Below are positions 23,400 to 46,528 of a DNA stretch of 64,000 nt, piece after piece. Origin of the DNA: an uncultured Porphyromonadaceae bacterium (lineage in GTDB: Bacteria; Bacteroidota; Bacteroidia; Bacteroidales; Muribaculaceae); NCBI GenBank assembly GCA_947649495.1, contig CANSRU010000001.1:118837-182836 (forward strand), given 5' to 3'. The position numbers and the translations under genes were made by a program. The notes below the pieces were generated by a model. The model had not been told where the DNA came from, made no database searches, and saw only the letters and a list, made by a program, of their open reading frames with translations. The number at the start of each line of letters is the position of its first letter. The stretch's first letter is position 1.

Positions 23400-24254
23400 T
23401 TATACACCCTGAAGTTTGAACTGGATGGGAAGCGTGTACCAAACGTTCACGGCATGTCCATTCATCTTACCGGGCTGGAACTTGGGAAGTGATTTAACCA
23501 CGCGGACTGCTTCCTTGTCAAGGTCGGGGTCCTTCGAGCGAACCACCTTCACCTGACCTACAGAACCTGTCTTGGTTACAACGAACTGTACCACAACACG
23601 ACCCTGAATACCATTTTCCTGAGCTACGCTCGGATAACGGAGGTGATCAGATACCCACTTCAGAAGGGCGGTCTGTCCACCGGGGAACTGGGGATCCTGT
23701 TCAACGGCGTCAAACACCTTGTTGTCGTCCGGGGGTTCGGGAGTCTTTTCCTCCACAACCACCACGTCCTTGTGTTCCTGAGCATTGATGATATCATCAA
23801 CACCACGGTCCTCATTGACCTTACCAACAGCAGTGTCAGTTTCCTTCAAATCGTCCTGGCTCTTGATATCCTCAACTACCTCTTCGTCCTTTACAATGGC
23901 GATTTCGGTAAGTTTCACAGTGTTGAGAAGCTCTTCCTTAATCACTTCGGGCTTGGGCTCCTCAATGCGCTGAGGCTCATCTTCGGGTTCTTCTTCAGGA
24001 GCTTCCTCCACAGCCATCTCGACGAGCGCCTGCTCAGCCATATCGTCCGGTTTAGCCTCGGCCGACTTGATAACTGTGTTAACGAGGAATGCAAGGGCTG
24101 CAAGAATCGCAATCACAATGACAATCACTATCATTGCCTTGTTGTGACGTGAATCGGATGATTTACGCAACTGATATGCGCCAAAATCCTTATTCTTGCC
24201 TTCAAATATAATATCGCGCCATTCTTTTGATGAAAGATCTACATCTTTTGCCAT
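23400..24254 (-). CDS. tonB: Energy transducer TonB
   Basis: The 284-residue TonB has an N-terminal cytoplasmic stretch of about 40 residues (KEWRDIIFEGKNKDFGAYQL, typical of Bacteroidetes TonB) and one transmembrane helix at about 41-63. A long acidic and proline-containing periplasmic linker follows. The C-terminal TonB domain (about 200-284) has QFPGGQTALLKWVSDHLRYP and GRVVVQFVVTKTGSVGQVKV. It couples proton motive force from ExbB/ExbD to outer-membrane TonB-dependent transporters. It is the last gene of the operon, 41 bases after exbD. Confidence 0.95.
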   Translation of the reverse strand: MAKDVDLSSKEWRDIIFEGKNKDFGAYQLRKSSDSRHNKAMIVIVIVIAILAALAFLVNTVIKSAEAKPDDMAEQALVEMAVEEAPEEEPEDEPQRIEEPKPEVIKEELLNTVKLTEIAIVKDEEVVEDIKSQDDLKETDTAVGKVNEDRGVDDIINAQEHKDVVVVEEKTPEPPDDNKVFDAVEQDPQFPGGQTALLKWVSDHLRYPSVAQENGIQGRVVVQFVVTKTGSVGQVKVVRSKDPDLDKEAVRVVKSLPKFQPGKMNGHAVNVWYTLPIQFKLQGV

Positions 24255-31547: not shown

Positions 31548-32852
31548 ATGACAACATACTCATTGACACTCGCCCAATCGCCCGCCACATTAACCATTCT
31601 GGCCGGTGTGGGCATATTCCTGCTCATCACACTCCTGCTTGTGGCCGTTCTGCTCACAGCCAAGCGATTTCTGGTCCACACAGGCAAAGTGACCATCACC
31701 ATTAACAATGACACCAAGGTGACAGCCGACTCCGGAAAGGCTCTCCTGTCAACCATGGCCGACAACGATATATTCCTCCCCTCGGCCTGTGGAGGCAAAG
31801 GCAGCTGCGGCCAGTGCAAGGTGCAGGTGCTTGAAGGCGGTGGCGACATACTGCCCACAGAAACCGTACACTTCTCGCGCAAGCAGATAAAGGACAATTG
31901 GCGCCTTGCCTGCCAGGTAAAAGTCAAGGAAGATATGGCTCTGGCCGTACCCGCATCAGTGCTCGACATCAAGGAATGGGAATGTACCGTTGTGAGCAAC
32001 AACAATGTATCCACATTCATCAAGGAATTTATCGTAGCCCTCCCCCCCGGCGAACACATGGACTTCATTCCCGGCTCCTACGCCCAGATAAAGATACCCC
32101 CCTACTCCATGGACTACGACAAGGATATTGACAAGGACTCAATCGGCGCTGAATATCTCCCTGCCTGGGAAAAATTCGGATTGTTCTCACTCAAATGTCA
32201 CAACGACGAGACCACAGTACGAGCCTACTCCATGGCCAACTATCCAGCCGAAGGCGACCGGTTCATGCTCACAGTGCGCATAGCCACCCCGCCGTTCAAA
32301 CCCAAACCCCAGGTTGGATTCATGGACGTGATGCCCGGCATAGCATCAAGCTACATATTCACTCTCAAGCCTGGCGACAAAGTGCTTATGAGCGGCCCTT
32401 ATGGCGACTTCCACCCCATATTCGACTCCAAGAAAGAGATGATGTGGATTGGTGGCGGTGCTGGCATGGCTCCACTACGCGCGCAGATCATGCACATGAC
32501 CAAGACACTTCACACACGCGACCGCGAGATGCACTATTTCTATGGAGCCCGCGCACTCAACGAAGTGTTCTATCTCGACGATTTCCTCCAGCTCGAAAAA
32601 GAATATCCCAACTTCCATTTCCATCTGGCTCTTGACCGTCCCGACCCTGCCGCCGATGCAGCCGGTGTAAAATATACCCCAGGCTTCGTGCATCAGGTAA
32701 TCTACGACACATACCTCAAGAACCACGACAACCCCGAGGATATCGAATACTATATGTGTGGCCCAGGCCCGATGAGCAATGCAGTCACCAAGATGCTTGA
32801 CTCGCTCGGCGTGGACCCCGAAAACATACACTACGACAATTTTGGAGGTTGA
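31548..32852 (+). CDS. nqrF: Na+-translocating NADH:quinone reductase subunit F
   Basis: NqrF is the NADH-oxidising entry subunit. The 434-residue protein has an N-terminal membrane anchor (about 12-38) and a 2Fe-2S ferredoxin domain with Cys81, Cys87, Cys90 and Cys122. A ferredoxin-reductase module follows: FAD site RAYSMANYP, NADH-binding GGGAGMAPLRA and the closing MCGPGPMSNAV. It is the last gene of the operon, followed by a strong terminator. Confidence 0.97.
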   Translation: MTTYSLTLAQSPATLTILAGVGIFLLITLLLVAVLLTAKRFLVHTGKVTITINNDTKVTADSGKALLSTMADNDIFLPSACGGKGSCGQCKVQVLEGGGDILPTETVHFSRKQIKDNWRLACQVKVKEDMALAVPASVLDIKEWECTVVSNNNVSTFIKEFIVALPPGEHMDFIPGSYAQIKIPPYSMDYDKDIDKDSIGAEYLPAWEKFGLFSLKCHNDETTVRAYSMANYPAEGDRFMLTVRIATPPFKPKPQVGFMDVMPGIASSYIFTLKPGDKVLMSGPYGDFHPIFDSKKEMMWIGGGAGMAPLRAQIMHMTKTLHTRDREMHYFYGARALNEVFYLDDFLQLEKEYPNFHFHLALDRPDPAADAAGVKYTPGFVHQVIYDTYLKNHDNPEDIEYYMCGPGPMSNAVTKMLDSLGVDPENIHYDNFGG

Positions 32853-32879
32853 TACTCCACACTCCATTCTCAATACATC

Positions 32880-32916
32880 ATCGGGCGCGAAACGATTTCG
32901 CGCCCGATGTATTTTT
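32880..32916 (+). terminator. Terminator of the nqr operon
   Basis: A 13-bp perfect stem ATCGGGCGCGAAA (32880-32892) / TTTCGCGCCCGAT (32896-32908) with a three-base loop is followed by GTATTTTT. It starts 27 bases past the nqrF stop. Confidence 0.9.
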
Positions 32917-33567: not shown

Positions 33568-34485
33568 ATGAAACATCTCTCGTTTAAAACACTCGTGGCA
33601 GCCATAGCATTACTTGGAGCTGTCTCGCTATCCGCTCAGAAAAAGAATGTACTGGTGCATCAACTTACCGGCAACAATGTAAACAAAGCAGACATCGAAC
33701 GCATTCATGCCCGCGTTGTGGAAGGGCTGTCAAAACTGCCTACCATAAATGTCCTCGATGCCTCCAACGATGGTGCCGAGGCCGACTTGTACTTCAAGTG
33801 CCATATTGACTCAATATGTGTATATCCTAAGAAAGGCAGCGACGGTAAAACAACTTACACCACTGAATTCAACATGAGCGCAGACGTATTTGACGCCAAG
33901 ACTGACCAACCCACATATTCGACAGCCATTACGGTCTACAACAGCATGTTGCTTACTTCATTCACCGACAAGAAACTATCTGCACAGTCAGCCCTCGATT
34001 GGGTACCGGAAAAGATTGAACGCGGTGTGTGGAAAGCATTCGCTATCAAAGGACAGCTCCTCAGCATCGAAGAGACAAAAAAAGATAAAGCATCTGTCGT
34101 TAGCGTAGCTCTCGGCACTCAGCACGGAGCTGCAGCAAAACAGGGATTCGATGTATACCTTCCCGACCCCAAAATTGTTGACAAGAAAGGCAATTTAAAG
34201 GAAAACAAACCAATCGGCAAAATCAAAGTCCAGGATCTGGGCGATGAAATTTCCGTTTGCAAGGTAAACGGTGGCGGTGACAAAATATATGCCGCATATC
34301 AGGAAAATCCTGAACAGCTCACTGTTCTTTCAAAAGGACCTTCGCATGGCTTGATTAACGATGGAAAATGGTACGGACAGGTTAGCGCTGAATACGCTTT
34401 CATCATCGGCCAGACAGTCAACGCCGTTATGGAGACCGTAGGCGCAGGTGTAGAATTGGGCAAGGAAGTTGGAAGTATCTTCTAA
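33568..34485 (+). CDS. Secreted CsgG-like/FlgT-C-like protein, paralogue 1
   Basis: The 305-residue protein has a signal peptide ending LSAQ. Residues about 25-170 form an alpha/beta domain resembling the N-domains of CsgG/TolB-type proteins (KKNVLVHQLTGNNVNKADIE, then strands with alternating hydrophobics). A beta domain at about 185-265 resembles the FlgT C-terminal domain: VVSVALGTQHGAAAKQGFDV, then PIGKIKVQDLGDEISVCKV. The last 40 residues (after GKWYGQ) are a distinct, Gly-rich amphipathic tail. It is the first of three tandem paralogues heading the cluster. Fold names are inferred from residue patterns; no function is known. Confidence 0.75.
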   Translation: MKHLSFKTLVAAIALLGAVSLSAQKKNVLVHQLTGNNVNKADIERIHARVVEGLSKLPTINVLDASNDGAEADLYFKCHIDSICVYPKKGSDGKTTYTTEFNMSADVFDAKTDQPTYSTAITVYNSMLLTSFTDKKLSAQSALDWVPEKIERGVWKAFAIKGQLLSIEETKKDKASVVSVALGTQHGAAAKQGFDVYLPDPKIVDKKGNLKENKPIGKIKVQDLGDEISVCKVNGGGDKIYAAYQENPEQLTVLSKGPSHGLINDGKWYGQVSAEYAFIIGQTVNAVMETVGAGVELGKEVGSIF

Positions 34486-34512
34486 GCCTGACATCAATAA
34501 AACTAACCAATT

Positions 34513-35286
34513 ATGATGAAACATCTGATTTCATTATCACTAATGCTCATTTGCGCCGTTTTTTCGGTGCAGGCGCAGCATAAAGTGATTGTCGATTCCA
34601 AAGTAAGTGGAACAGGTAACCGTGAATATGCCGAGATTCTCCGCAGCAAGGTTATGTCTACATTCTCAAAAGTTGGGTTTGTCCGTATAATGGATAGCAA
34701 CACCACCACAAACGAGGAAGCAGACTATTCGCTCTCACTTCATCTTGATGAAATTCTTGATCTCGGGAAACGCTCTGATACAGACTTCAAATACCGCTAC
34801 AAAGCTCCATTTGTGGTAAAAATAATAAAGCTGTCTGACAACAGTGTTAAAGCTACACAGACTTTCAACACCGAAGGTTACTCCGACGACTCCATGCGCG
34901 ATGCCATCCTGTCATCGCTTGACAAAAGCATGCCCAAAGTGCTTAAATTTGTCAACGAAAAACTTCCGATAGAGGGTGAGCTCATCGACATAACCGAGGC
35001 TAAAGGCAACAAAGCTCAATCTGTATATATTTCCTTAGGATCCCAGATAGGAATAACAAAAGGACAGGAACTGGAAGTAAAAGCCAAAGCCATGATTGCC
35101 GGAAAACCATATCTGAAATCTCTTGGCAAAATAAAAGTACAGGAGGTTGAGGGTGAGGAAGGTTCCCGCTGCAAAGTGACCGACGGGCATGAAAAAATCC
35201 TCAAGGAATACAACGACAACCCAGACAACATAGTTGTTGTGACCATGAAAGGTTGGGGGATAGGAGATTGGTGGAAAACAAATTAA
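34513..35286 (+). CDS. Secreted CsgG-like/FlgT-C-like protein, paralogue 2
   Basis: The 257-residue protein has a signal peptide MMKHLISLSLMLICAVFSVQ and Gln-Ala-Gln after it. It shares the layout of its neighbours: an N-domain starting HKVIVDSKVSGTGNREYAEI and a C-domain SVYISLGSQIGITKGQELEV ... LGKIKVQEVEGEEGSRCKV, then a DGHEKILKEYNDNPDNIVVV ending. It ends one base before paralogue 3, so the pair is tightly coupled. Likely periplasmic. Confidence 0.75.
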   Translation: MMKHLISLSLMLICAVFSVQAQHKVIVDSKVSGTGNREYAEILRSKVMSTFSKVGFVRIMDSNTTTNEEADYSLSLHLDEILDLGKRSDTDFKYRYKAPFVVKIIKLSDNSVKATQTFNTEGYSDDSMRDAILSSLDKSMPKVLKFVNEKLPIEGELIDITEAKGNKAQSVYISLGSQIGITKGQELEVKAKAMIAGKPYLKSLGKIKVQEVEGEEGSRCKVTDGHEKILKEYNDNPDNIVVVTMKGWGIGDWWKTN

Positions 35287-35287
35287 T

Positions 35288-36031
35288 ATGAAAAGAAATA
35301 TATTTTTAATTCTAACATCACTCATTTTCTTAATACCGCTTCAACTTATTGCCCAGACCCACCATAAGGTGATGGTCAACCAGTTTGGACGTAACGGCTA
35401 TGGAGCTGGAGCCACAAGACAAGCCGAAGTCCGTACAAAGCTAATCAATGCTTTGGACGGCTTGGGCTTTGATATGTTTCGCGGAAACGACACAAGCGAG
35501 ATGGACTATGTGCTCGACGGCAATCTCAGTCAGGCAAGCTACACATCAAGCTATCAGGATGGAGAAACAACCTACAAAGTCACAGCAAGCCTTACGGTAA
35601 CACTAACCCGCACAAGCGACAACTCAGCCATCGTGTCGCGCACATTCGACACAGTAGGCACAGATAGCGAATCGTCATCGCGCGCATACGACAACGCTAT
35701 GGGAAAATTGGTGGGAAGCGCCTATAAAGCTATCAAAGCTGCGCTCGGTTATCGGGCACAGGTCAACGAAATTACCATTGCTAAAAACAATGAAGCTAAA
35801 GAACTCATCGCTGACATATCTTACAAGGAGGGTGCATATAAGGGACGCAAAATGACTGTCAAACTACAGCACACAGTACGCGGACGCACAATGTTCCGTC
35901 GACTTGGAGAAGTCAAGGTTGAGGAAAATCTCGCTGATGGAACCGTAAGATGTAAAGTGACCAAAGGGCATAAGGAGATTTATCAGGCTTATCTGGACAC
36001 GCCCGAACAACTCACCGTACAGACAGACTGA
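35288..36031 (+). CDS. Secreted CsgG-like/FlgT-C-like protein, paralogue 3
   Basis: The 247-residue protein has a signal peptide ending LIAQ. Its N-domain HHKVMVNQFGRNGYGAGATR is followed by a helix and strands with TVTLTRTSDNSAIVSRTF, the accessory pattern of CsgG/LpoB-type folds. The C-domain has EGAYKGRKMTVKL and RLGEVKVEENLADGTVRCKV, then a KGHKEIYQAYLDTPEQLTV ending parallel to paralogues 1 and 2. It starts one base after paralogue 2 and ends 20 bases before the next gene. Confidence 0.75.
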   Translation: MKRNIFLILTSLIFLIPLQLIAQTHHKVMVNQFGRNGYGAGATRQAEVRTKLINALDGLGFDMFRGNDTSEMDYVLDGNLSQASYTSSYQDGETTYKVTASLTVTLTRTSDNSAIVSRTFDTVGTDSESSSRAYDNAMGKLVGSAYKAIKAALGYRAQVNEITIAKNNEAKELIADISYKEGAYKGRKMTVKLQHTVRGRTMFRRLGEVKVEENLADGTVRCKVTKGHKEIYQAYLDTPEQLTVQTD

Positions 36032-36051
36032 TTTATAAAGTATTATTTTAT

Positions 36052-37266
36052 ATGAAACTATCATTTATCAAACGTGGACACGTTGCAATCATAGCGTTGC
36101 TCACATCGTTTTTCGCACAAGCTCAGGACGAATTTTCACGCGATGTGACATATCTTTCCGGCAAAGATAATTTCGTGACCGTGCAGGTTACCGCTCAGGC
36201 TATGGACAAAAAAAATGTGGAAGCTATGGCCTGTAAATCGGTTCTTGACACATATTTGTTCAGTGGTATAGAAGGAGTAGGGACCGGTATGCCGAAACTT
36301 GATGCGGGAGCCGCAAATCTGCATCGCGACTATTTCAGAACGCTATATGCCCGGAAATACACAGTATTCGCAAATATGCCTGTAAAGGTTGTAAAACCGA
36401 AAAAGAATATGGCAGGTGTATTTGAAGGCACCTATAATGTCACATTCAAGCAGGCGGCATTCGATAGGGATTTATGCACCAACAATATTATTTCGTGTGG
36501 TGTAGAACCGGTGCAATTGCCCACAATAATGGTAGTTCCTTTCCGAAAAGACGGTGAAAGCTATCGCACCATACTCGACAATGATCCAAACATCCGTATT
36601 GCCATAAGTAAAGTACAGACAGCTTTCCGAAAAGCCGGATACACCACTATCGATTTTATTGCAAAACTCGAATCTGCCGAACGGCACAACAATTTCACTC
36701 AGGACAATGCCGATTCTTTTGCCACCCAGCTTATCAGAAACTCAGGCTCCGACATATATGTTTCTGTTGATTGCTCTTTTGTGGAAAATTATCGCAGTAA
36801 CCATGTATCGCTTGCATTGAAAGCATATTATTCAGCCACCGGTAATATTACGGCAAGCGCCACGTCAAGCTACGATGGTAAACTGCCGTTCGACCGATGC
36901 TGTGTGGGAGCCATACATCGTGTAATGACCGATTTCATCAAACAAATCAAGTGGCCGCCGACAAAAATAGAGTCACGGCTTGCCGTGGGAATTGATTCCG
37001 AATCCATGCTCACTCTTGAATCCGTAATCGGAAATCAGGGAGCCACAGTCGCTGAGGAGATAAGAGCTTGGGTTAAGAAAAATGCAAAATCGTTCCATCA
37101 GCAAGGCCTTACCGACACCGAAGTTATTTTCGACACAATAATACTTCCGGACGACTGCGATTCAACCGACTTTGCTATTAAATTGGCTCAACACCTCCGC
37201 AAACAAGGTGTATCAGCCAAGTACACCATTGATGGATTATCTATTTACATCACTGTTTCCGACTGA
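36052..37266 (+). CDS. DUF6175-like secreted protein
   Basis: The 404-residue protein has signal peptide MKLSFIKRGHVAIIALLTSF ending AQAQ. The central part QLPTIMVVPFRKDGESYRTI begins an alpha/beta domain of the CsgG-like type, and a helical C-terminal third follows. The pattern resembles DUF6175 family proteins of Bacteroidales, a recollection I cannot verify here. It ends one base before the first LPP20-like gene, indicating one transcript with the cluster. Confidence 0.7.
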   Translation: MKLSFIKRGHVAIIALLTSFFAQAQDEFSRDVTYLSGKDNFVTVQVTAQAMDKKNVEAMACKSVLDTYLFSGIEGVGTGMPKLDAGAANLHRDYFRTLYARKYTVFANMPVKVVKPKKNMAGVFEGTYNVTFKQAAFDRDLCTNNIISCGVEPVQLPTIMVVPFRKDGESYRTILDNDPNIRIAISKVQTAFRKAGYTTIDFIAKLESAERHNNFTQDNADSFATQLIRNSGSDIYVSVDCSFVENYRSNHVSLALKAYYSATGNITASATSSYDGKLPFDRCCVGAIHRVMTDFIKQIKWPPTKIESRLAVGIDSESMLTLESVIGNQGATVAEEIRAWVKKNAKSFHQQGLTDTEVIFDTIILPDDCDSTDFAIKLAQHLRKQGVSAKYTIDGLSIYITVSD

Positions 37267-37267
37267 C

Positions 37268-38695
37268 ATGAAACCATTAAAATCACTCATACTGTTTTGC
37301 ACAGCCATATTGCTGCCATCGGTGGTGATGGCTGCAAAAGCAAAGGCGCCGGAGTGGACCGTGGCCAAACCTGCCGTACGCGGATTTTACACCGGTGTCG
37401 GTAGCGCGCCGCTATCCTCAGCCGACAATCAGAAGCTCGCAAAAGAGCGCGCACTGGCCGATCTCATATCCGAAATCGAAATCAAGATTGAAAACAATTC
37501 GCTGCTTGAGCGTATGGACGAAAATGGCAACTACTCCGAACGTCATACCGACCAGATTCGCTCGCAGGCCAAAGCATGGCTCGAGGGCTACGAGCTGGTG
37601 GACACTTACAACGATGGCAGCCGCTATTGGGTCTACTATCGCCTGAACCGCGACGACTACGCCGACCTCAAAAAGCGTCGGAGCGCCGAGGCCGGAGCCG
37701 AAGCGCTAAGTTACTGGAAGCAGGGCAACAGAGCCTTGGACAACGGACGGTTTGACGATGCAGCACAGCTTTACTGCCAAGGCATAAAATCCATCGAACC
37801 GTTTGCCGACCAACGTCTCACTGTGGACGACAACGGACGGACCATGAACATTGGCCCTGAATTGCTCTATGCCCTTAGCGGAATGTTCAGCACCATCACA
37901 GTGGAATTTGCTCCTGAAAAGTTAAGAGTAAAGCCATTCAATGCCGAGAGCGCAGACATAAAAGTAGGTGTAAAAACCAACGGTAAGGATTTGAACAACA
38001 TTGCGGTAAAAGCCAAAATGGATTCAGGCACGGCCAAGATAACCGTGCGCGGACGCACCGACCGGGCGGGTAATGTCAATATCTCGGTGTCTGACGTGTC
38101 GGCAAAACCAGCCCAACGCCACATCACGGTGACACCGGTAATCGACATTGACTATGTGTTTGACACTCCTGCTCTCAAGGAGATAGGCGACCGCCTTAAA
38201 TCCCTGATACGCTCGGCAGTAATACCGGTGGAGATTGAGGACTCCCAGCTTAAAGCCGTGTGCACCACCACCGATATGGATGCCGGAAGCCTATCCCGGG
38301 CCATAGCCAGCTTTATCAACAACAATTACTTCGACATAGTCGACGACGAGGCCGAAGCCGACCTCCGCTTCAGCATAAGCACTCGTTTCCGCAAAGGCAA
38401 TGTGGTTCAGGGCGACATGTACCCCATGCGCGAATATTTCATCTCGACATCCGTACTCGTCACCGACCTCAATGCCAAGACCAATGTAACCACGGTGGTA
38501 ATCGACGAGATGCGCACGCTCGCACCCGAAAAAGCATCAGTATCGAAAGCACGCACCAACGCTCACCGGGAAGTGCTGAAAAAGCTGAAAAAGGCGCTTG
38601 ACAGGCAACTGCTGTCATCGAAATTCAAGCGTCGCGATGGCACACGCACCGATACTGATTACGTGGATTGGTTCTCTGAAGATAATCTCGAATAA
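37268..38695 (+). CDS. LPP20/FlgP-like secreted protein with TPR and C-terminal domain
   Basis: The 475-residue protein has a signal peptide (MKPLKSLILFCTAILLPSVV). An LPP20-like domain (about 25-130) is recognisable by FYTGVGSAPLSSADNQKLAK followed by an Ala-rich helix and EIEIKIENNSLLER. Next is a TPR-like helical pair (SYWKQGNRALDNGRFDDAAQ), a beta-rich middle, and a C-terminal alpha/beta domain (about 310-455). ATG 37268 is chosen because it immediately precedes the signal peptide; the longer in-frame opening overlaps the previous gene. LPP20 proteins include the flagellar outer-membrane FlgP, but no flagellar gene is here. Confidence 0.78.
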   Translation: MKPLKSLILFCTAILLPSVVMAAKAKAPEWTVAKPAVRGFYTGVGSAPLSSADNQKLAKERALADLISEIEIKIENNSLLERMDENGNYSERHTDQIRSQAKAWLEGYELVDTYNDGSRYWVYYRLNRDDYADLKKRRSAEAGAEALSYWKQGNRALDNGRFDDAAQLYCQGIKSIEPFADQRLTVDDNGRTMNIGPELLYALSGMFSTITVEFAPEKLRVKPFNAESADIKVGVKTNGKDLNNIAVKAKMDSGTAKITVRGRTDRAGNVNISVSDVSAKPAQRHITVTPVIDIDYVFDTPALKEIGDRLKSLIRSAVIPVEIEDSQLKAVCTTTDMDAGSLSRAIASFINNNYFDIVDDEAEADLRFSISTRFRKGNVVQGDMYPMREYFISTSVLVTDLNAKTNVTTVVIDEMRTLAPEKASVSKARTNAHREVLKKLKKALDRQLLSSKFKRRDGTRTDTDYVDWFSEDNLE

Positions 38696-38764
38696 TCCGC
38701 GCCACTATATCCCCCCAATCTTTCTAACAAATCTCCAATCACTCACATTTTAATATTGACAATT

Positions 38765-39304
38765 ATGAAACTTTTCTCTGCAATCATTCTCGCCACCGCA
38801 ATCATCGCATCCTCTGCATGCGCATCAGCCAAAAAGAACAAGGCCAACAAGGGCGAGACCGAGATAACCCAGCTCTGCAATTTCACCACCGACGAAAACG
38901 ACTTCTATGGCAATGGCGTAGCCGAAAGCACCGACATGCAGATGGCTAAGGACAAAGCCATTACCGCAGCCCGCGCTCAGGTGGCCAATGCCCTTAAAGT
39001 ATCGGTGGAGCAGTTCACCAAACGCTTCCGCAGCGATGTCAACGACGAACTCGACCAGAAAACCGAAGACAGCCTGCAGTCCATCACCGTACAGACCATG
39101 TCGGGATGCACAGTGGTGTGCGAACGTGTGGTGCGTGCCGAAAATGGAAAATACCGCGCATACGTATCTGTTAAACTTCCCAAGCAAAAAGTAATCGACG
39201 CTGCAAAGGAAGTGGTGAAGAAAGACACCAAGAAGACCCTCGACGAACGCGAGGCTGAATTCGACAAAGCCATTCGCGAGACCATAACCAACTCGGGCAA
39301 TTGA
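38765..39304 (+). CDS. LPP20/FlgP-like small secreted protein
   Basis: The 179-residue protein has a signal sequence with possible lipidation at Cys in IASSACAS (weak lipobox). The mature part is one LPP20-type domain: DFYGNGVAESTDMQMAKDKA, then a long Ala-rich helix and strands SITVQTMSGCTVVCERVV and KYRAYVSVKLPKQKV. ATG 38765 is preferred over the in-frame TTG at 38756 because it starts the signal peptide. It lies 69 bases after the larger LPP20-like gene, the widest gap within the cluster. Confidence 0.78.
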   Translation: MKLFSAIILATAIIASSACASAKKNKANKGETEITQLCNFTTDENDFYGNGVAESTDMQMAKDKAITAARAQVANALKVSVEQFTKRFRSDVNDELDQKTEDSLQSITVQTMSGCTVVCERVVRAENGKYRAYVSVKLPKQKVIDAAKEVVKKDTKKTLDEREAEFDKAIRETITNSGN

Positions 39305-39324
39305 TTCACCGACAATTAACGACC

Positions 39325-40833
39325 ATGCGTCACACCTCACTCACATCCTCATTGGCCGTTCTGCTTGCCTTGGCTTCCATGCCTTGGCAGGCAGCGGCTC
39401 AATCACAGCAGACCGATTGGGAAAAAGCATTCTGGGAGCGAGCCAAAAGCCATGCACAGAGTTTTGACTCCACCACGCGCAGCCATTTCGAACAGATGCG
39501 TTCCAATTTCAACGCCGAATATGCCGATGCTCTCGATGGTATCTGGAAACACTACGAAGTGCTGCCTCCGGCCGACAATTCCATAAAGAAAAAACCACGG
39601 AAAGCTCCGGTGGCTCCGAAACCGGACACTGCGCCGCTGAAACCCGTCGACATTGTCCCCAGTAAGATAGTGTTGCCCCCGGTGTCTATTGACCCCGTAC
39701 CGCTGACTATCCCTAAAGATCCTACCCCCACCCTGCCCGACCGCAGCCGTGGGCTCAGTTTCGACTTTTATGGAACCACATGCGAGATAGGCGACTACAA
39801 TTTCGACCCCATCGATTATAACCCCCAAAGCATGAAACTCGGCAGCGAGTGGAAAAAACTTGAGGCCGACGGCGACATGCAATCACTAATCGACGACTGC
39901 CTGCGTCTGCGCGAGGCGTTATCGCTATGCGACATAGGCTATTTGTGGCTTACGGAACACGTGGCAAAGAAAATCTATCCATCGTCTACCGACTCTCAGG
40001 CATTCCTTACATCTTACCTGCTCAACCAGACCGGCTACGACGTCAAACTTGGACTGACCGACAAGGGACTGACACTCCTTTACAACACCGACCTGCCCGT
40101 TTACGGATGTTGCTCGGTGAATTTCAACGGTCGCAAATACTACGTGCGCGACAGTCTGGTGGAACGTCGGCCGATAAGGTCCTACGAAGGTCTCTATGCT
40201 GCCAACGAAGCTATACCGTTGCGCCTCACACCCGACCGTATGCCGGCGCTCGACACCGAGATGAAAGATACTGTACAATACAGTTCGAAACTTTGGGTTG
40301 TCGAACCTGAATTCAAAGTCACCGTGAGCCGTCCCGACATGAAATTCCTCGCCGACTATCCATGGATGTCGTGGGAAAACTATCTGAGGGCACCGCTCAC
40401 CGACAATTTCCGCAATCAGGTTGTGGAGACAATGCGCGAAAAAGTCAAAGGCCTTGACACATTCGACGGCGTGCGCAAGCTCCTGTCGTACGTGCAGTAT
40501 GGCTTCAATTACATGACTGACCCGCAGCAATATGGCCACGAAAAAGTCAACTTCCCCGAAGAAAACTTCTTCTATCCTGCCAACGACTGCGAAGACCGCG
40601 CCATTCTTCTGGCCACACTCGTGCGCGAGATTTATGGTCTTGATGTGGTGCTCCTGCACTACGACGGACACCTCAGCACCGCCATCGACTTCCGCGACCC
40701 GACTATAAAAGGCGACGCAATAAACATCGACGGACACCACTACGTGATGTGCGACCCGACGTTTATCGGAGCTCCCATCGGAATGTCAATGCCCAACTAC
40801 CGCAATCAGCAACCCATAGTCTACAAACAGTAA
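39325..40833 (+). CDS. Secreted transglutaminase-like cysteine protein
   Basis: The 502-residue protein has a signal peptide ending in AAAQS, a helical N-terminal region (about 30-90), a Lys/Pro-rich linker (about 90-140), a beta middle and a C-terminal transglutaminase-like domain (about 350-480). The catalytic triad is visible: Cys422 in NDCEDRA, His449 in DGHLSTAI and Asp477 in CDPTF. Such domains hydrolyse or cross-link peptides and amides outside the cytoplasm. ATG 39325 is used because an upstream TTG (39301) overlaps the previous stop. Substrate unknown. Confidence 0.85.
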   Translation: MRHTSLTSSLAVLLALASMPWQAAAQSQQTDWEKAFWERAKSHAQSFDSTTRSHFEQMRSNFNAEYADALDGIWKHYEVLPPADNSIKKKPRKAPVAPKPDTAPLKPVDIVPSKIVLPPVSIDPVPLTIPKDPTPTLPDRSRGLSFDFYGTTCEIGDYNFDPIDYNPQSMKLGSEWKKLEADGDMQSLIDDCLRLREALSLCDIGYLWLTEHVAKKIYPSSTDSQAFLTSYLLNQTGYDVKLGLTDKGLTLLYNTDLPVYGCCSVNFNGRKYYVRDSLVERRPIRSYEGLYAANEAIPLRLTPDRMPALDTEMKDTVQYSSKLWVVEPEFKVTVSRPDMKFLADYPWMSWENYLRAPLTDNFRNQVVETMREKVKGLDTFDGVRKLLSYVQYGFNYMTDPQQYGHEKVNFPEENFFYPANDCEDRAILLATLVREIYGLDVVLLHYDGHLSTAIDFRDPTIKGDAINIDGHHYVMCDPTFIGAPIGMSMPNYRNQQPIVYKQ

Positions 40834-40868
40834 CACTTATCTGATTATTCGTAAAAAACAGTATTCTG

Positions 40869-42131
40869 ATGGCAGCGAAAAAGAAGAAACATAAGCCTAA
40901 ATATGTACTGCTTGAGACGCCGACATTCAAGGAATCGGGAATAAGCGCCTTTTTCATTTCCATCGCAGCGCTCATTTTGTCGCTCTACCTGCCCGGAGAG
41001 CTGACATCACTTGAGGTTTTCATACCCAAAGAAAAAGCCAACGACTTTAGTTTCAGCGACTTTTACACCATGACGGCCACCAATGCCGATGCCGTGTCGA
41101 CAGACACCATAGTAACCGTGGTGGCACTTGACGGATGTACCCGCGCACAGATGGGACGCGCAATAGCCATGGCCGACACATCGGGGGTGTCGGCCATCGG
41201 TATTGACATGATATTCAGTCCGCCCACCACATCCTACGACTCCATAGTTCAGGCCATCGACACAGCTCGTAATGTAGTGCTGCCTGTAGTGCTGACCGAT
41301 ATGATTGATGGATTCTTCACCAAATCCGAGGTGTCATATTTCGAACCGCAGCTCACCAACAGCCTCGAACATGGAGCTGTCAACATCAACGGAAGCCACG
41401 AAGGTACCACCACACGTTTTTTCAAGGCAGAGTTTGACACCGAGGAGGGCCCGATACCCGCATTGCCTACCGTACTCGCCGAGATGCACCATCCGGGATG
41501 CGCCGAAACGCTATGGGAGCGTGGCAACGACATGGAGATGATAAATTTCTCAGGCCGCGTGTTCAACATTATCACCCCCGACGAGATAGAATCGCACCCC
41601 GAGCTGCTACGCGACCACATAGTGCTGATGGGTTATGTCAACGACCGGTCCGACATGCACCGCAACCCTTTGGTCAACAAAATTCCCGGTGTGCTGATTC
41701 ATGCCAACACCATTTCCACAATTGTCGAACAAACCTACATAGACTACTCATCCACATGGATTAACATAGTCATTGCTTTTGTGGCGTGCTTCATCATGGT
41801 GTTTGCCGGCATGCACTTCCGCTTCCGTCCTTGGGGTGCCATGCTTGTACGCGGCATTCAGATCATACTGATGTTCGGAGTGTTATATGCCGGAGCGCTC
41901 GTCTACATACGCCATAGCTACTCCTTTGAATTTGGTCCCACAATCACTGTGACCATTCTCGGCCTTGTAGTGATGGACATAGTGATTGGCCTGAGTCTCA
42001 CCGGACGCAATGTGATGAAATGGCTCAAATCCCCCAAAATCGCAAAAAGACTGGCCAGACAAAAATACCCCAAAGCATATAATTATTTTTTTAGAAATGA
42101 GAATCAAAATGAGAGGCAGACACAAGTTTAG
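40869..42131 (+). CDS. CHASE2 membrane protein without output domain
   Basis: The 420-residue protein has an N-terminal transmembrane helix (about 22-42) and a large extracytoplasmic CHASE2-type domain (about 45-290) containing DTIVTVVALDGCTRAQMGRA and GIDMIFSPPTTSYDS. Three C-terminal membrane helices follow (about 297-320, 325-350 and 357-378). A short basic cytoplasmic tail (RLARQKYPKAYNYFF) ends it. CHASE2 normally feeds a cyclase or kinase; none is attached. The 3' end overlaps the next gene by 35 bases. Confidence 0.85.
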   Translation: MAAKKKKHKPKYVLLETPTFKESGISAFFISIAALILSLYLPGELTSLEVFIPKEKANDFSFSDFYTMTATNADAVSTDTIVTVVALDGCTRAQMGRAIAMADTSGVSAIGIDMIFSPPTTSYDSIVQAIDTARNVVLPVVLTDMIDGFFTKSEVSYFEPQLTNSLEHGAVNINGSHEGTTTRFFKAEFDTEEGPIPALPTVLAEMHHPGCAETLWERGNDMEMINFSGRVFNIITPDEIESHPELLRDHIVLMGYVNDRSDMHRNPLVNKIPGVLIHANTISTIVEQTYIDYSSTWINIVIAFVACFIMVFAGMHFRFRPWGAMLVRGIQIILMFGVLYAGALVYIRHSYSFEFGPTITVTILGLVVMDIVIGLSLTGRNVMKWLKSPKIAKRLARQKYPKAYNYFFRNENQNERQTQV

Positions 42132-42930
42132 ATTCGTAATCGCGCTATTTCTAACAATCTTGACATCCGTTGGTGCCATGGCGCAACAATATGCCGTCTA
42201 CAAAGTGAGTGGCAACGCCGGAGTGATACAGGGTGCGAGAGTGCGGCCACTTACACGCGGTAAAGCTATCGAGGCCGACACACGGCTACGCATCGGCAGC
42301 AACAGCGAGGTGTGGGTTATAGAGCGAAAATACAAAGGCGCGGTTTATAAATTCCGTCAACCCACAGGCAAGGAGGGTGCCACCGTGAAATCGCTTGTGG
42401 CAAAGGTCAAGAACCGCACACAGGCAGGAATTGACGACGTCAATAAGAAAATACTCGACGGAATCTCCGTCAACAAGACACGAAACGACGAATTCACTCG
42501 CGCCGGTGTATCGCGGGTGGTAACCAATGCCTCCGGTAGCGAAACTGAACTCCACTCGCTCATTGGACCATACGTAGCGCCCAAAGTGCCACACCCCTAC
42601 AATCCGGTTACTGTGAAGAAAGTCAACGATGGCAACCGTCTGTTCCACTTTGCGCTCACAAGCAAGGAAATCGATGGCCTGTATGCCAATATAATATTGA
42701 AGGACTGCAATGCCGACAACATGGAATTTTTATTCCCGGCCAACCTCGTTCTGGCCAAAGGTCAGACAAAAGACATGTCAGACTGCATGTTCATGGTACC
42801 GAAACGTCCATTCCCGGGATATATCCTCATTCTGAGCGACGAGCCGTTCACACTCGACGACATACTCGCCGAACTCGATGTCAACACACAGAACACCGAA
42901 CGGCACTTCGTCTATCAGATTATCGATTGA
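42097..42930 (+). CDS. FecR-like secreted protein overlapping CHASE2 gene
   Basis: The 277-residue protein has a signal peptide ending GAMAQ, followed by a short beta segment like a FecR ligand domain: YAVYKVSGNAGVIQGARVRP and the LRIGSNSEVWVIERKYKGAV strand. A helical middle and a beta C-terminal part follow. ATG 42097 overlaps the CHASE2 coding end; a start at 42109 would keep most of the overlap and the signal peptide. This overlap suggests coupled synthesis of the two. FecR-like domains often pair with CHASE2 proteins in cyanobacteria. Confidence 0.72.
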   Translation: MRIKMRGRHKFRFVIALFLTILTSVGAMAQQYAVYKVSGNAGVIQGARVRPLTRGKAIEADTRLRIGSNSEVWVIERKYKGAVYKFRQPTGKEGATVKSLVAKVKNRTQAGIDDVNKKILDGISVNKTRNDEFTRAGVSRVVTNASGSETELHSLIGPYVAPKVPHPYNPVTVKKVNDGNRLFHFALTSKEIDGLYANIILKDCNADNMEFLFPANLVLAKGQTKDMSDCMFMVPKRPFPGYILILSDEPFTLDDILAELDVNTQNTERHFVYQIID

Positions 42931-42937
42931 TTATCAA

Positions 42938-43699
42938 CTATACATTGAACAACGCACGGGCATTGGAGGTGGTGGCATCGGCCACCGCCTCTTTTGTCAT
43001 TCCGAGACTGTCGGCCACATACGCAGCCGTATGCACTATATAGGCACTCTCATTGCGCTTGCCGCGGTGAGGCACAGGCGCAAGATAGGGCGAATCGGTC
43101 TCAAGCAGCAAGCGCTCCACTCCTATGGCCGGAAGCGTATCGCGTAGCCGTGAGTTCTTGAATGTGACTATTCCGTTTATGCCGAAATAAAAATCCACCA
43201 CACGGCGCACACGGTCCACATCCTTGTCAGTGCCACCGAAACTGTGCATCACCCCGCGCGCTGCCGGAAATGCCTGCAACACTTCCAACACCTGATCCAG
43301 ACCTTCGCGACAGTGTATTATCACCGGCAATCCGGCATCCACGGCCCAGCGCATCTGAGCCTCGAGCGCTTGCATCTGCTCGTCGGCAAACGTTGCATCC
43401 CAGTAGAGGTCTATACCTACTTCCCCCACCGCCACATATCCACCACGGTCAAACTCCCACTTCACTTGTTCAAGTTGCTCGCGCCAGTCGTGACCTATTT
43501 CTGTAGGATGCAGCCCCATGGCCATGGATATATTTTCCGGAAACTGTTCGTGCAATTGCCGCATGGCATCAATTGTGGTCAGATCCACATTCGGCATTAT
43601 CAGATGCTCCACTCCGGCATCGATAGCCCGGCGCACGGCATCAGCCCCACCATTCTCGAATTCCGAAAGGTAGAGGTGTGTATGGGTGTCTATAATCAT
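42938..43699 (-). CDS. TatD family metal-dependent hydrolase
   Basis: The 253-residue protein is a TatD-type DNase of the amidohydrolase superfamily. Metal ligands are seen in DTHTHLY (His6 and His8), GEVGID (Glu), HCREG (His) and ETDSPYLAP (Asp), with the closing segment typical of TatD. ATG 43699 is chosen because 27 upstream in-frame residues are not family-like. It starts one base after the polyprenyl synthetase stop on the minus strand, so the genes are coupled. It ends eight bases from the convergent cluster end. Confidence 0.95.
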   Translation of the reverse strand: MIIDTHTHLYLSEFENGGADAVRRAIDAGVEHLIMPNVDLTTIDAMRQLHEQFPENISMAMGLHPTEIGHDWREQLEQVKWEFDRGGYVAVGEVGIDLYWDATFADEQMQALEAQMRWAVDAGLPVIIHCREGLDQVLEVLQAFPAARGVMHSFGGTDKDVDRVRRVVDFYFGINGIVTFKNSRLRDTLPAIGVERLLLETDSPYLAPVPHRGKRNESAYIVHTAAYVADSLGMTKEAVADATTSNARALFNV

Positions 43700-45360: not shown

Positions 45361-45978
45361 ATGAAAACATTGCAACGCAACATCATTATCGCCATCGCAG
45401 CCATAGCGTTATGCTGCACCATAGCCTGCGGTCGCACCAACTCTGCCGATGAAATTTCCAAAGAAGCCATCGATCAGATAAAAACCGAGATTGTAAACGA
45501 ATTAGGAAAAGTCAGCACCGACTCCCTCTCCGAGAAAGTGATTTACGTACAGCCCACTGTGATCAGCTCCGGAGGTGGCTCTCCTTTCAAGGCCAAACTG
45601 CTTATACCGCTGTTCGGCATAGTAATCCCGTTTGCCGCATTCGTAGGCGTTGTCTGGGTCGTGATGCACTTCCGCCGTGAGCGTCAGCGCGACAAATATA
45701 AAATCATCGAACTCTCCATACAAAAAGGCCAGCAGTTGCCCGACAGCTTCTACCTCGGTGAACGCCTGCGCAAAAGTCGCCTTCAGTCAGGCATAATATG
45801 GCTCGGATGCGGCCTCGCGCTATTCATTTGGGGACTGGGCGATTCCGATGAACTCACAGCCGCCCTCGGCATAATCCCGTTCTTCGTAGGTGTGGCACGC
45901 ATAGTAACCTACTTTGTTGAAGACCGCAAGACACTCCGCAAAATAGAAGCTGCCGACGAAGATGTTAAGCAAGATTGA
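45361..45978 (+). CDS. DUF6249-like membrane protein
   Basis: The 205-residue protein has an N-terminal signal sequence with a lipobox-like end (TIACGRT) and a short periplasmic part. A transmembrane helix (about 80-103) is followed by a cytoplasmic stretch (FRRERQRDKYKIIELSIQKG) and two more membrane helices at the C-terminus. The pattern fits DUF6249. Its last 17 bases overlap the sigma factor gene, so the two are translationally linked. I infer a membrane role in the sigma regulation. Confidence 0.78.
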   Translation: MKTLQRNIIIAIAAIALCCTIACGRTNSADEISKEAIDQIKTEIVNELGKVSTDSLSEKVIYVQPTVISSGGGSPFKAKLLIPLFGIVIPFAAFVGVVWVVMHFRRERQRDKYKIIELSIQKGQQLPDSFYLGERLRKSRLQSGIIWLGCGLALFIWGLGDSDELTAALGIIPFFVGVARIVTYFVEDRKTLRKIEAADEDVKQD

Positions 45979-46528
45979 GGAAATAGCGCTAATCACCCGA
46001 TGCGTGGCGGTCGACGACCGCCGCGCCTTCGAGCGGTTGGTCGAGGAATATTCCCCCGGCCTGAGGCGCTTCATATTCAATCTCACAATGGGCGATGCCG
46101 CCCTCACCGACGATATATCGCAGGATGCCTTTATCAAAGCCTACACATCGCTGCGCTCATTCAAAGGCATGGCCCGCTTCAAGACATGGCTTTACCGCAT
46201 AGCCTACAATGAATACGTCACCTCAATGCGACGACGCTCCGAGGAGCATCTTGCCGACGACAGCTATGACCGTGCCATTGCCCGCAACGACTCAGGCAGT
46301 TCATCGCAGCAACGGCTCACTGAAATGCGTCACGACATAGAGGTGGGCATGAGAGCATTGTCAGATATCGAACGTACACTGGTGCTTCTATTCTATCTTG
46401 AAGACCGCCCTATTAAAGAGATTGTAAAGATTACGTCACTCCCCGAGGGTACCGTGAAATCCTACCTTTCGCGTGCCAAGAGCAAAATGGCCCAGGCCAT
46501 CACCGAATACAATAACCACGAATTATGA
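45962..46528 (+). CDS. ECF RNA polymerase sigma factor
   Basis: The 188-residue group 4 sigma factor has region 2 (about 20-90; DDISQDAFIKAYTSLRSF and ARFKTWLYRIAYNEYVTSM) and region 4 (about 130-180; YLEDRPIKEIVKITSLPEGT then VKSYLSRAKSKM). It directs RNA polymerase to a specific promoter set. It overlaps the DUF6249 gene at its 5' end and a small two-helix membrane protein gene by ATGA at its 3' end; the latter is a likely anti-sigma. Confidence 0.93.
   Translation: MLSKIEEIALITRCVAVDDRRAFERLVEEYSPGLRRFIFNLTMGDAALTDDISQDAFIKAYTSLRSFKGMARFKTWLYRIAYNEYVTSMRRRSEEHLADDSYDRAIARNDSGSSSQQRLTEMRHDIEVGMRALSDIERTLVLLFYLEDRPIKEIVKITSLPEGTVKSYLSRAKSKMAQAITEYNNHEL

Follow-up and report, generated by a model that had tools for sequence, protein, structure and literature searches.

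A predicted envelope gene cluster built from two joined modules in an uncultured Muribaculaceae bacterium

Nine genes in two modules

The window analyzed here is a stretch of 64,000 nucleotides from an uncultured Porphyromonadaceae bacterium (assembly GCA_947649495.1, contig CANSRU010000001.1, positions 118,837 to 182,836; family Muribaculaceae in the GTDB lineage), and the list of its open reading frames (ORFs) contains nine, here named g1 to g9, that all lie on the plus strand between coordinates 33568 and 42930. These nine genes are two modules joined together, A (g1-g6) and B (g7-g9), because g8 and g9 form a separable pair, which is found by itself at this site in G362, a genome of the same genus. 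Module A is a conserved operon: the order FlgT-like - DUF6175 - large LPP20 - small LPP20, on one strand and with gaps of less than 400 bases, is kept in 34 of the 41 loci examined in other genomes, showing that the linkage is more than chance. We give a shade better than even chances to the reading that all nine genes specify one envelope apparatus made from two exchangeable modules, in which a scaffold of the LPP20/FlgT type is combined with an exchangeable cysteine hydrolase and a CHASE2 sensor. The nine genes are as follows.

g1, 33568..34485 (+): secreted FlgT-like protein with a CsgG/TolB-N-like domain and a FlgT_C-like domain
g2, 34513..35286 (+): second FlgT-like paralogue
g3, 35288..36031 (+): third FlgT-like paralogue
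g4, 36052..37266 (+): DUF6175 protein, with a CsgG/PelC fold in the middle domain (about residues 154-303)
g5, 37268..38695 (+): large protein of the LPP20 family
g6, 38765..39304 (+): small lipoprotein, LPP20-like
g7, 39325..40833 (+): secreted transglutaminase-like (TG) cysteine enzyme, C422-H449-D477
g8, 40869..42131 (+): CHASE2 membrane protein with no output domain
g9, 42097..42930 (+): secreted partner of CHASE2 proteins

The spacing from g1 through g9 is 27, 1, 20, 1, 69, 20, 35, and -35 bases, figures that use internal ATG starts for g5 (37268), g6 (38765), and g7 (39325), and the last of which is the 35-base overlap of g8 with g9. A first-pass annotation of this DNA had described nine same-strand genes with no gap larger than 69 bases, and this description stands, the gaps being 1-69 bases. 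It had also given every product a signal peptide or membrane segment; six N-terminal signals (g1, g2, g3, g5, g6, and g9) pass by hydropathy and g8 has hydrophobic segments at residues 23-41, 291-309, 327-345, and 359-377, but the hydrophobic starts of g4 and g7 are shorter and fall under the signal threshold. Pfam supplies names for g4, g5, and g8 and a weak one for g6, with g1-g3, g7, and g9 having no match over cut-off, and NCBIfam names none of the nine proteins over its cut-offs. The G+C content of the cluster (0.487 vs 0.502 for the window) is not telling.

Module A is conserved across Bacteroidales

The 41 loci were recovered by a scan of genome contigs with eight g4 proteins, which gave 53 pattern matches of which 41 were confirmed; they were selected by g4, so that the presence of g4 in them is no result, and six are contigs that also belong to the set of genomes numbered with G. 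They include loci of Odoribacter, Butyricimonas, Marinifilum, Dysgonomonas, Barnesiella, and Muribaculum. Of all these loci, L048 of Barnesiella sp. An55 has the g4 most like that of the window, and L079 of Dysgonomonas sp. 521 combines module A and TG. The deviating loci depart in various ways: L060 and L088 end inside the operon, the FlgT-like gene comes last in L052, the small LPP20 gene of L077 lies elsewhere, L085 lacks an LPP20 gene at this place, and in L067 and L076 an unassigned ORF of 183 and 729 residues, respectively, fills the missing place.

More distant versions occur as well. By the g4 profile, 68 of the 247 genomes of the family have DUF6175 in one form or another, and a second type of DUF6175 operon, which includes a protein designated e1, is present in 19 of the 20 regions examined with a hidden Markov model (HMM) built from those regions. 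The diverged operons L124 and L125 read FlgT-like - DUF6175 - e1 - LPP20 large - LPP20-like small - TG, echoing the order of g1-g7. The first-pass annotation had proposed a common system and had suggested conservation of gene neighborhood as a check. For g1-g7 the proposal is supported by the order kept in the 34 loci and echoed in these two operons, and independent scatter of g1-g6 was not seen; both g7 and g8-g9 are also found without them. A search with g5 matched six of the 247 family genomes, including the window's own and one weak match, and at the level of the order 20 of 149 genomes, many in a different context. In five e1-type operons (L121 and L129-L132) DUF6175 is split into two ORFs of about 150 and 290 residues. 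As for a phage origin, one scan of viral contigs gave 28 pattern matches, none of which was confirmed as a relative of g4.

Joining of the modules and the site between nqrF and tatD

The cluster lies between nqrF, which ends at 32852, and a convergent tatD whose low end at 42938 is seven bases past g9. Within the genus an nqrF match was obtained in 31 of 34 genomes, and the 30 loci read include that of the window. Among the other 29, tatD follows nqrF by 12-122 bases with no cluster in 12, one (G362) has only a CHASE2 gene and a g9-like gene ahead of tatD, 12 have neither there, and four end within about 200 bases of nqrF. The site after nqrF thus seems prone to rearrangement, since its 25 readable loci hold tatD (12), the CHASE2 pair (1), or something else (12).

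It might be argued that the cluster is nothing but two independent neighbors, an LPP20/FlgT-type operon (g1-g7) that came to lie beside a g8-g9 pair already at the site, with shared transcription and no shared function. The order in G362, nqrF - CHASE2 - g9-like - tatD - ispA with no g1-g7, is what this would predict, and the window's g8 and g9 are slightly nearer to those of G362 (46% and 39% identity) than to those of G338 (44% and 33%). However, G338 itself carries FlgT-like - DUF6175 - LPP20 - LPP20 - TG - CHASE2 - g9, in the same order as in the window, within a 20-kb region that has neither nqrF nor tatD, its nqrF being on another contig. Moreover, nine of the 247 family genomes contain, at ten places in all, a TG gene directly before a CHASE2 gene, the two matches being 38-104 bases apart (G000, G338 (two), G183, G208, G194, G168, G214, G245, and G174). 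From the comparison of G362 with the window and G338 it follows that g1-g7 and g8-g9 are separable, and yet two congeners have them joined in identical order within different surroundings, and we regard independent neighbors as rather improbable.

Proteins of module A, the proposed scaffold

Genes g1-g3, like g7, were recognized solely through relatives or a fold model. The homologue in locus L028 is matched by g1 at E 3.6e-26 and by g3 at E 1.7e-26 in single-sequence phmmer comparisons. The fold model of g2 resembles FlgT, CsgG, and PelC and contains both the FlgT middle (CsgG-like) and FlgT_C domains, which backs the CsgG-like/FlgT_C identity first assigned to the three paralogues. Among 41 relatives of g1-g3, FlgT_C is matched in seven and CsgG (PF03783) weakly in three (best E 0.0027). 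The three FlgT-like paralogues are not united in a tree (41 of 46 sequences as alignment rows); g2 and g3 alone join, at support 85/86 and with g3 on a long branch. Two further family matches, S-layer VapA for g3 (E 8e-4; 18 bits where the cut-off is 200) and MMgT for g2 (E 0.0075), were taken as chance.

The product of g4 is a DUF6175 protein (Pfam E 6e-39), as had been suggested at first pass, and its middle domain has the fold of PelC and CsgG. In the g4 model a chain of the LPHT ring aligns from residue 74, but an LPP20-like reading of the N-domain is unsupported, comparison of the profile of the g4 N-part with LPP20 families having found nothing. The g4 alignment used 36 of 41 rows; here and in the other alignments, truncated and near-identical rows were dropped first and others for size.

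Two LPP20/FlgP-like proteins had been proposed, and this is clear for g5, which is over the cut-off of PF02169 (LPP20; E 5.3e-12, 46.4 bits vs 25.9). A profile of 30 g5 sequences (of 38) matches 4kzs, a 'LPP20 lipofamily protein' that we take to be HP1454, at E 3.8e-5. The smaller g6 is itself below the cut-off (E 0.0037, 18.1 bits), though a 26-sequence profile made from 19 of 39 g6 relatives and seven of 12 members of the small LPP20-like family k4 matches 5ok8, which is Lpp20 (excerpt of PMC12222027), at E 1e-3. The g6 profile also matches the g5 N-domain at 90.8%. The g6 signal ends in a lipobox-like motif, as is found in 25 of 39 members of its family.

FlgP and FlgT form rings or discs at the outer membrane, and FlgP has an SHS2-like fold common to Lpp20 and FlgT, according to excerpts of PMC12222027. 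As in the FlgT/FlgP/FlgO H-ring and basal disk, the FlgT middle and C-terminal folds are present in g2 and LPP20-type proteins are encoded alongside; unlike there, an enzyme and a CHASE2 protein are encoded in addition, and the model of g2 starts at the CsgG-like domain with no domain preceding it. The cluster is not part of a flagellum, since the window's genome has no match to FliF (PF01514), the control being positive in four of 14 genomes. Another likeness is to the Helicobacter pylori operon of HP1454 and HP1456 (Lpp20), a larger and a small LPP20-type pair as in g5-g6, whose products have FlgP and FapH, two motor proteins, as interaction partners; the excerpted text mentions no DUF6175 or FlgT-like partner (PMC11756786).

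CsgG is a lipoprotein, and the outer-membrane lipoproteins CsgG and PelC (the latter a dodecamer according to its PDB title) share their fold with the g2 N-domain and the g4 middle domain. The genes g1-g4 could be read as a CsgG- or PelC-like pore or collar for secretion, exporting a surface polymer or fibre. We consider this quite unlikely: g1-g4 have no Pfam CsgG match and PF03783 has none in the window's genome at E 0.001, a simple lipobox-like pattern is found in 0 of 46 members of the g1-g3 family and in one of the 41 g4-family members, no protein of the nine resembles an exported fibre or a polysaccharide synthase, and the same fold is found in TolB, LptE, and FlgT. Slightly less probable still is a regulator of peptidoglycan synthesis or remodelling that would act LpoB-like on a penicillin-binding protein, with a peptidoglycan amidase encoded by g7. 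In favor of such a regulator one may cite LpoB as the commonest Pfam match among the g1-g3 relatives (23 of 41 at E 0.01 or better, best 2.9e-8) and an MltC-like lytic transglycosylase in 15 of the 41 module A loci, but the LpoB/CsgG-type fold is common to many envelope proteins and LpoB (PF13036) has no match in g1, g2, or g3 themselves.

The predicted enzyme, the CHASE2 protein and its partner

The reading of g7 as a transglutaminase-like cysteine protein, made at first pass, gains support from C422, H449, and D477, which are invariant in an alignment of 38 TG proteins (31 of 39 listed and seven others) and stand in the usual Cys-His-Asp order of the triad. Transglut_core is matched by seven of the 38 (best E 3.3e-4), and g7 itself is unmatched. 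A relationship of g7 to the lytic transglycosylase c7 was rejected, the profile comparison giving a match of 36 columns and no shared N-domain.

The CHASE2 identity of g8 is confirmed by PF05226 (E 2e-15, 57.5 bits vs a cut-off of 26.3). This is its sole Pfam match, leaving g8 with no output domain and 43 residues beyond the last hydrophobic segment, and the protein is probably a sensor. The FecR-like identity proposed for g9, on the other hand, has to be given up as a named family, because FecR is matched by none of 17 members (g9 and 16 relatives) in Pfam at E 0.01; a weak match of g9 to the LapA retention module (E 0.13) was not used. A g9-like ORF was found in all 20 CHASE2 regions examined, with an HMM trained partly on those regions.

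A fusion of caspase (metacaspase) and CHASE2 with the same helix pattern is described for Trichodesmium in an excerpt of PMC3501461, and a Burkholderia BiofilmReg operon in which CHASE2 kinase genes lie beside a FecR/LysM gene in one of PMC5192318. Both fit CHASE2 as the sensing side by analogy, without amounting to proof, and differ from the window in that g8 has no output domain, the cluster has no caspase or kinase, and g9 has no Pfam FecR or LysM.

A recurring link to cysteine peptidases

The first-pass annotation passed over the recurring association of these families with caspase-like peptidases. Its plainest form is a gene that fuses DUF6175 with a C14 caspase domain, found directly after a FlgT-like gene in all four such cases checked, from four genomes of one genus:

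L112:685-2469, genome G231 (the same place as L137)
L113:1501-3276, genome G174
L114:610-2376, genome G194
L115:451-2214, genome G214

These proteins of 588-595 residues begin with DUF6175 sequence (its N- and middle parts), which reaches about residue 300-320, followed by the C14 domain (by HMM). In Pfam the C14 matches range from 3.4e-17 to 2e-20 and those to DUF6175 from 5.4e-7 to 7.8e-5, one of the four being just under the cut-off, and one protein has a weak FlgO match (E 0.005). In the L137 protein a signal-like stretch stands at the start, and there are HG and CFSG-type motifs, as is usual for caspases. The fusion thus ties the g4 family to a caspase-type peptidase.

In other module A loci the peptidase is of a different kind. 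A zinc-ribbon C25-type peptidase gene is present in 25 of the 41, with zinc-ribbon partners in 24 and 23; the C25 domain is recognized by Pfam in 21 of 24 members of this peptidase family, and His300 and Cys345 are invariant in the 24 proteins. The MltC-like transglycosylase of some module A loci matches SLT (1.8e-23) and Mltc_N (7.5e-9). Across L056-L088 there is a recurring block, up- or downstream of module A, of a zinc-ribbon C25-type peptidase, a zinc-ribbon coiled-coil protein, a small protein, a zinc-ribbon/Sel1 protein, and the MltC-like lytic transglycosylase. An SPFH label for a further protein, c5, is weak (Band_7 in one of 22 members, E 0.0029).

The genes of module B have a neighborhood of their own. 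CHASE2 proteins like g8 are present in 48 of the 247 family genomes, and the 20 regions examined, mostly from the top of the list and with HMMs built partly from these regions, contain a C14 caspase (13), DUF4384 (13), WD40 (13), the small LPP20-like k4 (13), and TG (9). In L214 seven such genes stand in a row, with Pfam matches to CHASE2, C14 (1.8e-20), and DUF4384 (9.9e-7); its k4 has no LPP20 match and is tied to g6 by profile (85.7%). PADLOC, used to look for known defense genes and whose caspase model matches the C14 protein of L214, has no match for g1, g4-g9, or two proteins of the C25 block. At L231:9373-14677 a CHASE2 gene and a g9-like secreted protein lie next to a CHAT-domain protein encoded on the opposite strand (E 2.6e-44).

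TG genes are found in 84 of the 247 family genomes. In 40 TG regions an LPP20-type gene lies within seven genes in 33 and on the same strand within five in 32, with C14 genes in 17 and DUF4384 in 15. By comparison, 14 control regions around nqrF (three of them under 6 kb) contain no LPP20-type or TG gene, one C14 gene, one MltC-like gene, and one CHASE2 pair, that of G362. Another type of TG operon (L290:9188-17257, L292:9566-15520, and L265:4992-10747) consists of a small LPP20-like gene, a large LPP20-like gene, a gene for a protein of about 600 residues, and then TG; judged by eye, the third product has candidate PEGA repeats and an outer-membrane barrel.

The window's genome has two C14 genes outside the window. 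At L254:196-4065 the order is LPP20-like - DUF4384 - caspase C14, and at L253:7044-12555 a 224-residue ORF is followed by DUF4384 - caspase C14 - TG. This ORF had been considered an LPP20-like gene, and a recheck gave no LPP20 match.

A possible envelope machine and its implications

How the one-apparatus reading might work can be outlined as follows. The products of g1-g3, g4, g5, and g6 would form a periplasmic, probably outer-membrane-attached oligomer, as FlgT/FlgP and PelC do elsewhere. At this scaffold g7 would act in the periplasm on peptidoglycan or envelope proteins, while g8 in the inner membrane and the secreted g9 would report the state of the envelope to g7, such that g8-g9 are the input and the hydrolase the output, perhaps in an envelope stress response, repair, or lysis. 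The part exchanged between branches would be the hydrolase: TG in one, C25 with a lytic transglycosylase in another, C14 as neighbor or fusion in others, and CHAT in L231. An envelope scaffold with a swappable hydrolase is suggested as the general design because other Bacteroidales link the scaffold to a C25-type peptidase, zinc-ribbon proteins, a lytic transglycosylase, or a caspase fusion, and the g7-g9 module to C14, DUF4384, and WD40. What the data show directly is the gene order, the homologies, the folds of g2 and mid-g4, the conserved residues of catalytic type, the repeated linkage, and the DUF6175-caspase fusion; where the complex lies, its oligomerization, the control of g7 by g8-g9, the substrate, and the purpose are inferences.

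Several observations weigh against joining all nine genes in one apparatus, beginning with the lone CHASE2 pair of G362. Apart from the window, only G338 is known to have the full arrangement, there with one FlgT-like gene; most module A loci lack the rest, TG being present in five of 41 loci (in L081 on the opposite strand) and CHASE2 in one; and in seven of the 40 TG regions no gene of the LPP20 type comes within seven genes of TG. The window has no gene for a caspase, C25, or other clan CD peptidase, and its genome has no C25-type homologue, such that the peptidase theme in the window hangs on g7, a predicted enzyme that Pfam itself does not name. Two-hybrid analysis gave no interaction of HP1454 and HP1456 with each other (excerpt of PMC11756786). 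Several of the HMMs were also trained on loci later counted, contigs end early, and the fusion comes from one genus.

A broader proposal is more tentative, and we would at present rather expect it to fail than to hold. Under this proposal, Bacteroidales have a large class of so far undescribed envelope machines, where a scaffold of FlgT/LPP20 and CsgG/PelC-fold (DUF6175) proteins, outside any flagellum, serves interchangeable cysteine hydrolases (transglutaminase-like, C25, caspase C14, and CHAT) and lytic transglycosylases, often under CHASE2 control, as a proteolytic switch triggered by envelope damage or an invader; the DUF6175-caspase fusion would be its plainest example, and the window would rank as a rare hybrid joining the two main branches. 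Were this true, it would give a role to several gut Bacteroidales families that are now orphans (DUF6175, small LPP20 proteins, and CHASE2 proteins with no output domain). Flagellar H-ring and basal-disk proteins would belong to a broader repertoire of envelope scaffolds, a point relevant to the origin of those rings. Bacterial caspases and gingipain-like peptidases of commensals would be tied to an envelope complex, making the role of bacterial caspases testable in gut bacteria. Envelope and flagellar proteins figure among the neighbors recorded in a survey of metacaspase operons, whose section on operons does not name this set (PMC3501461). In the open-licence full text of PubMed Central we found no paper containing DUF6175, none joining LPP20 with CHASE2 or FecR, and no description of this gene set.

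Other features of the window

Two possible terminators flank the cluster, both as pattern matches, with 16 such patterns in the region vs 11.5 in shuffles:

32879..32909 (+): possible intrinsic terminator after nqrF, at the upstream border; 14-pair stem with 9 G-C pairs and a T-rich tail
42965..42992 (+): possible terminator after g9, within the 3' end of the convergent tatD; 12-pair stem with 8 G-C pairs

Elsewhere in the window, the minus strand at 23400-24254 weakly matches the zinc-ribbon/Sel1 family (E 2.5e-5), and an ORF at 45962-46528, which follows a small membrane-protein ORF at 45361-45978, is by eye a candidate ECF sigma factor.

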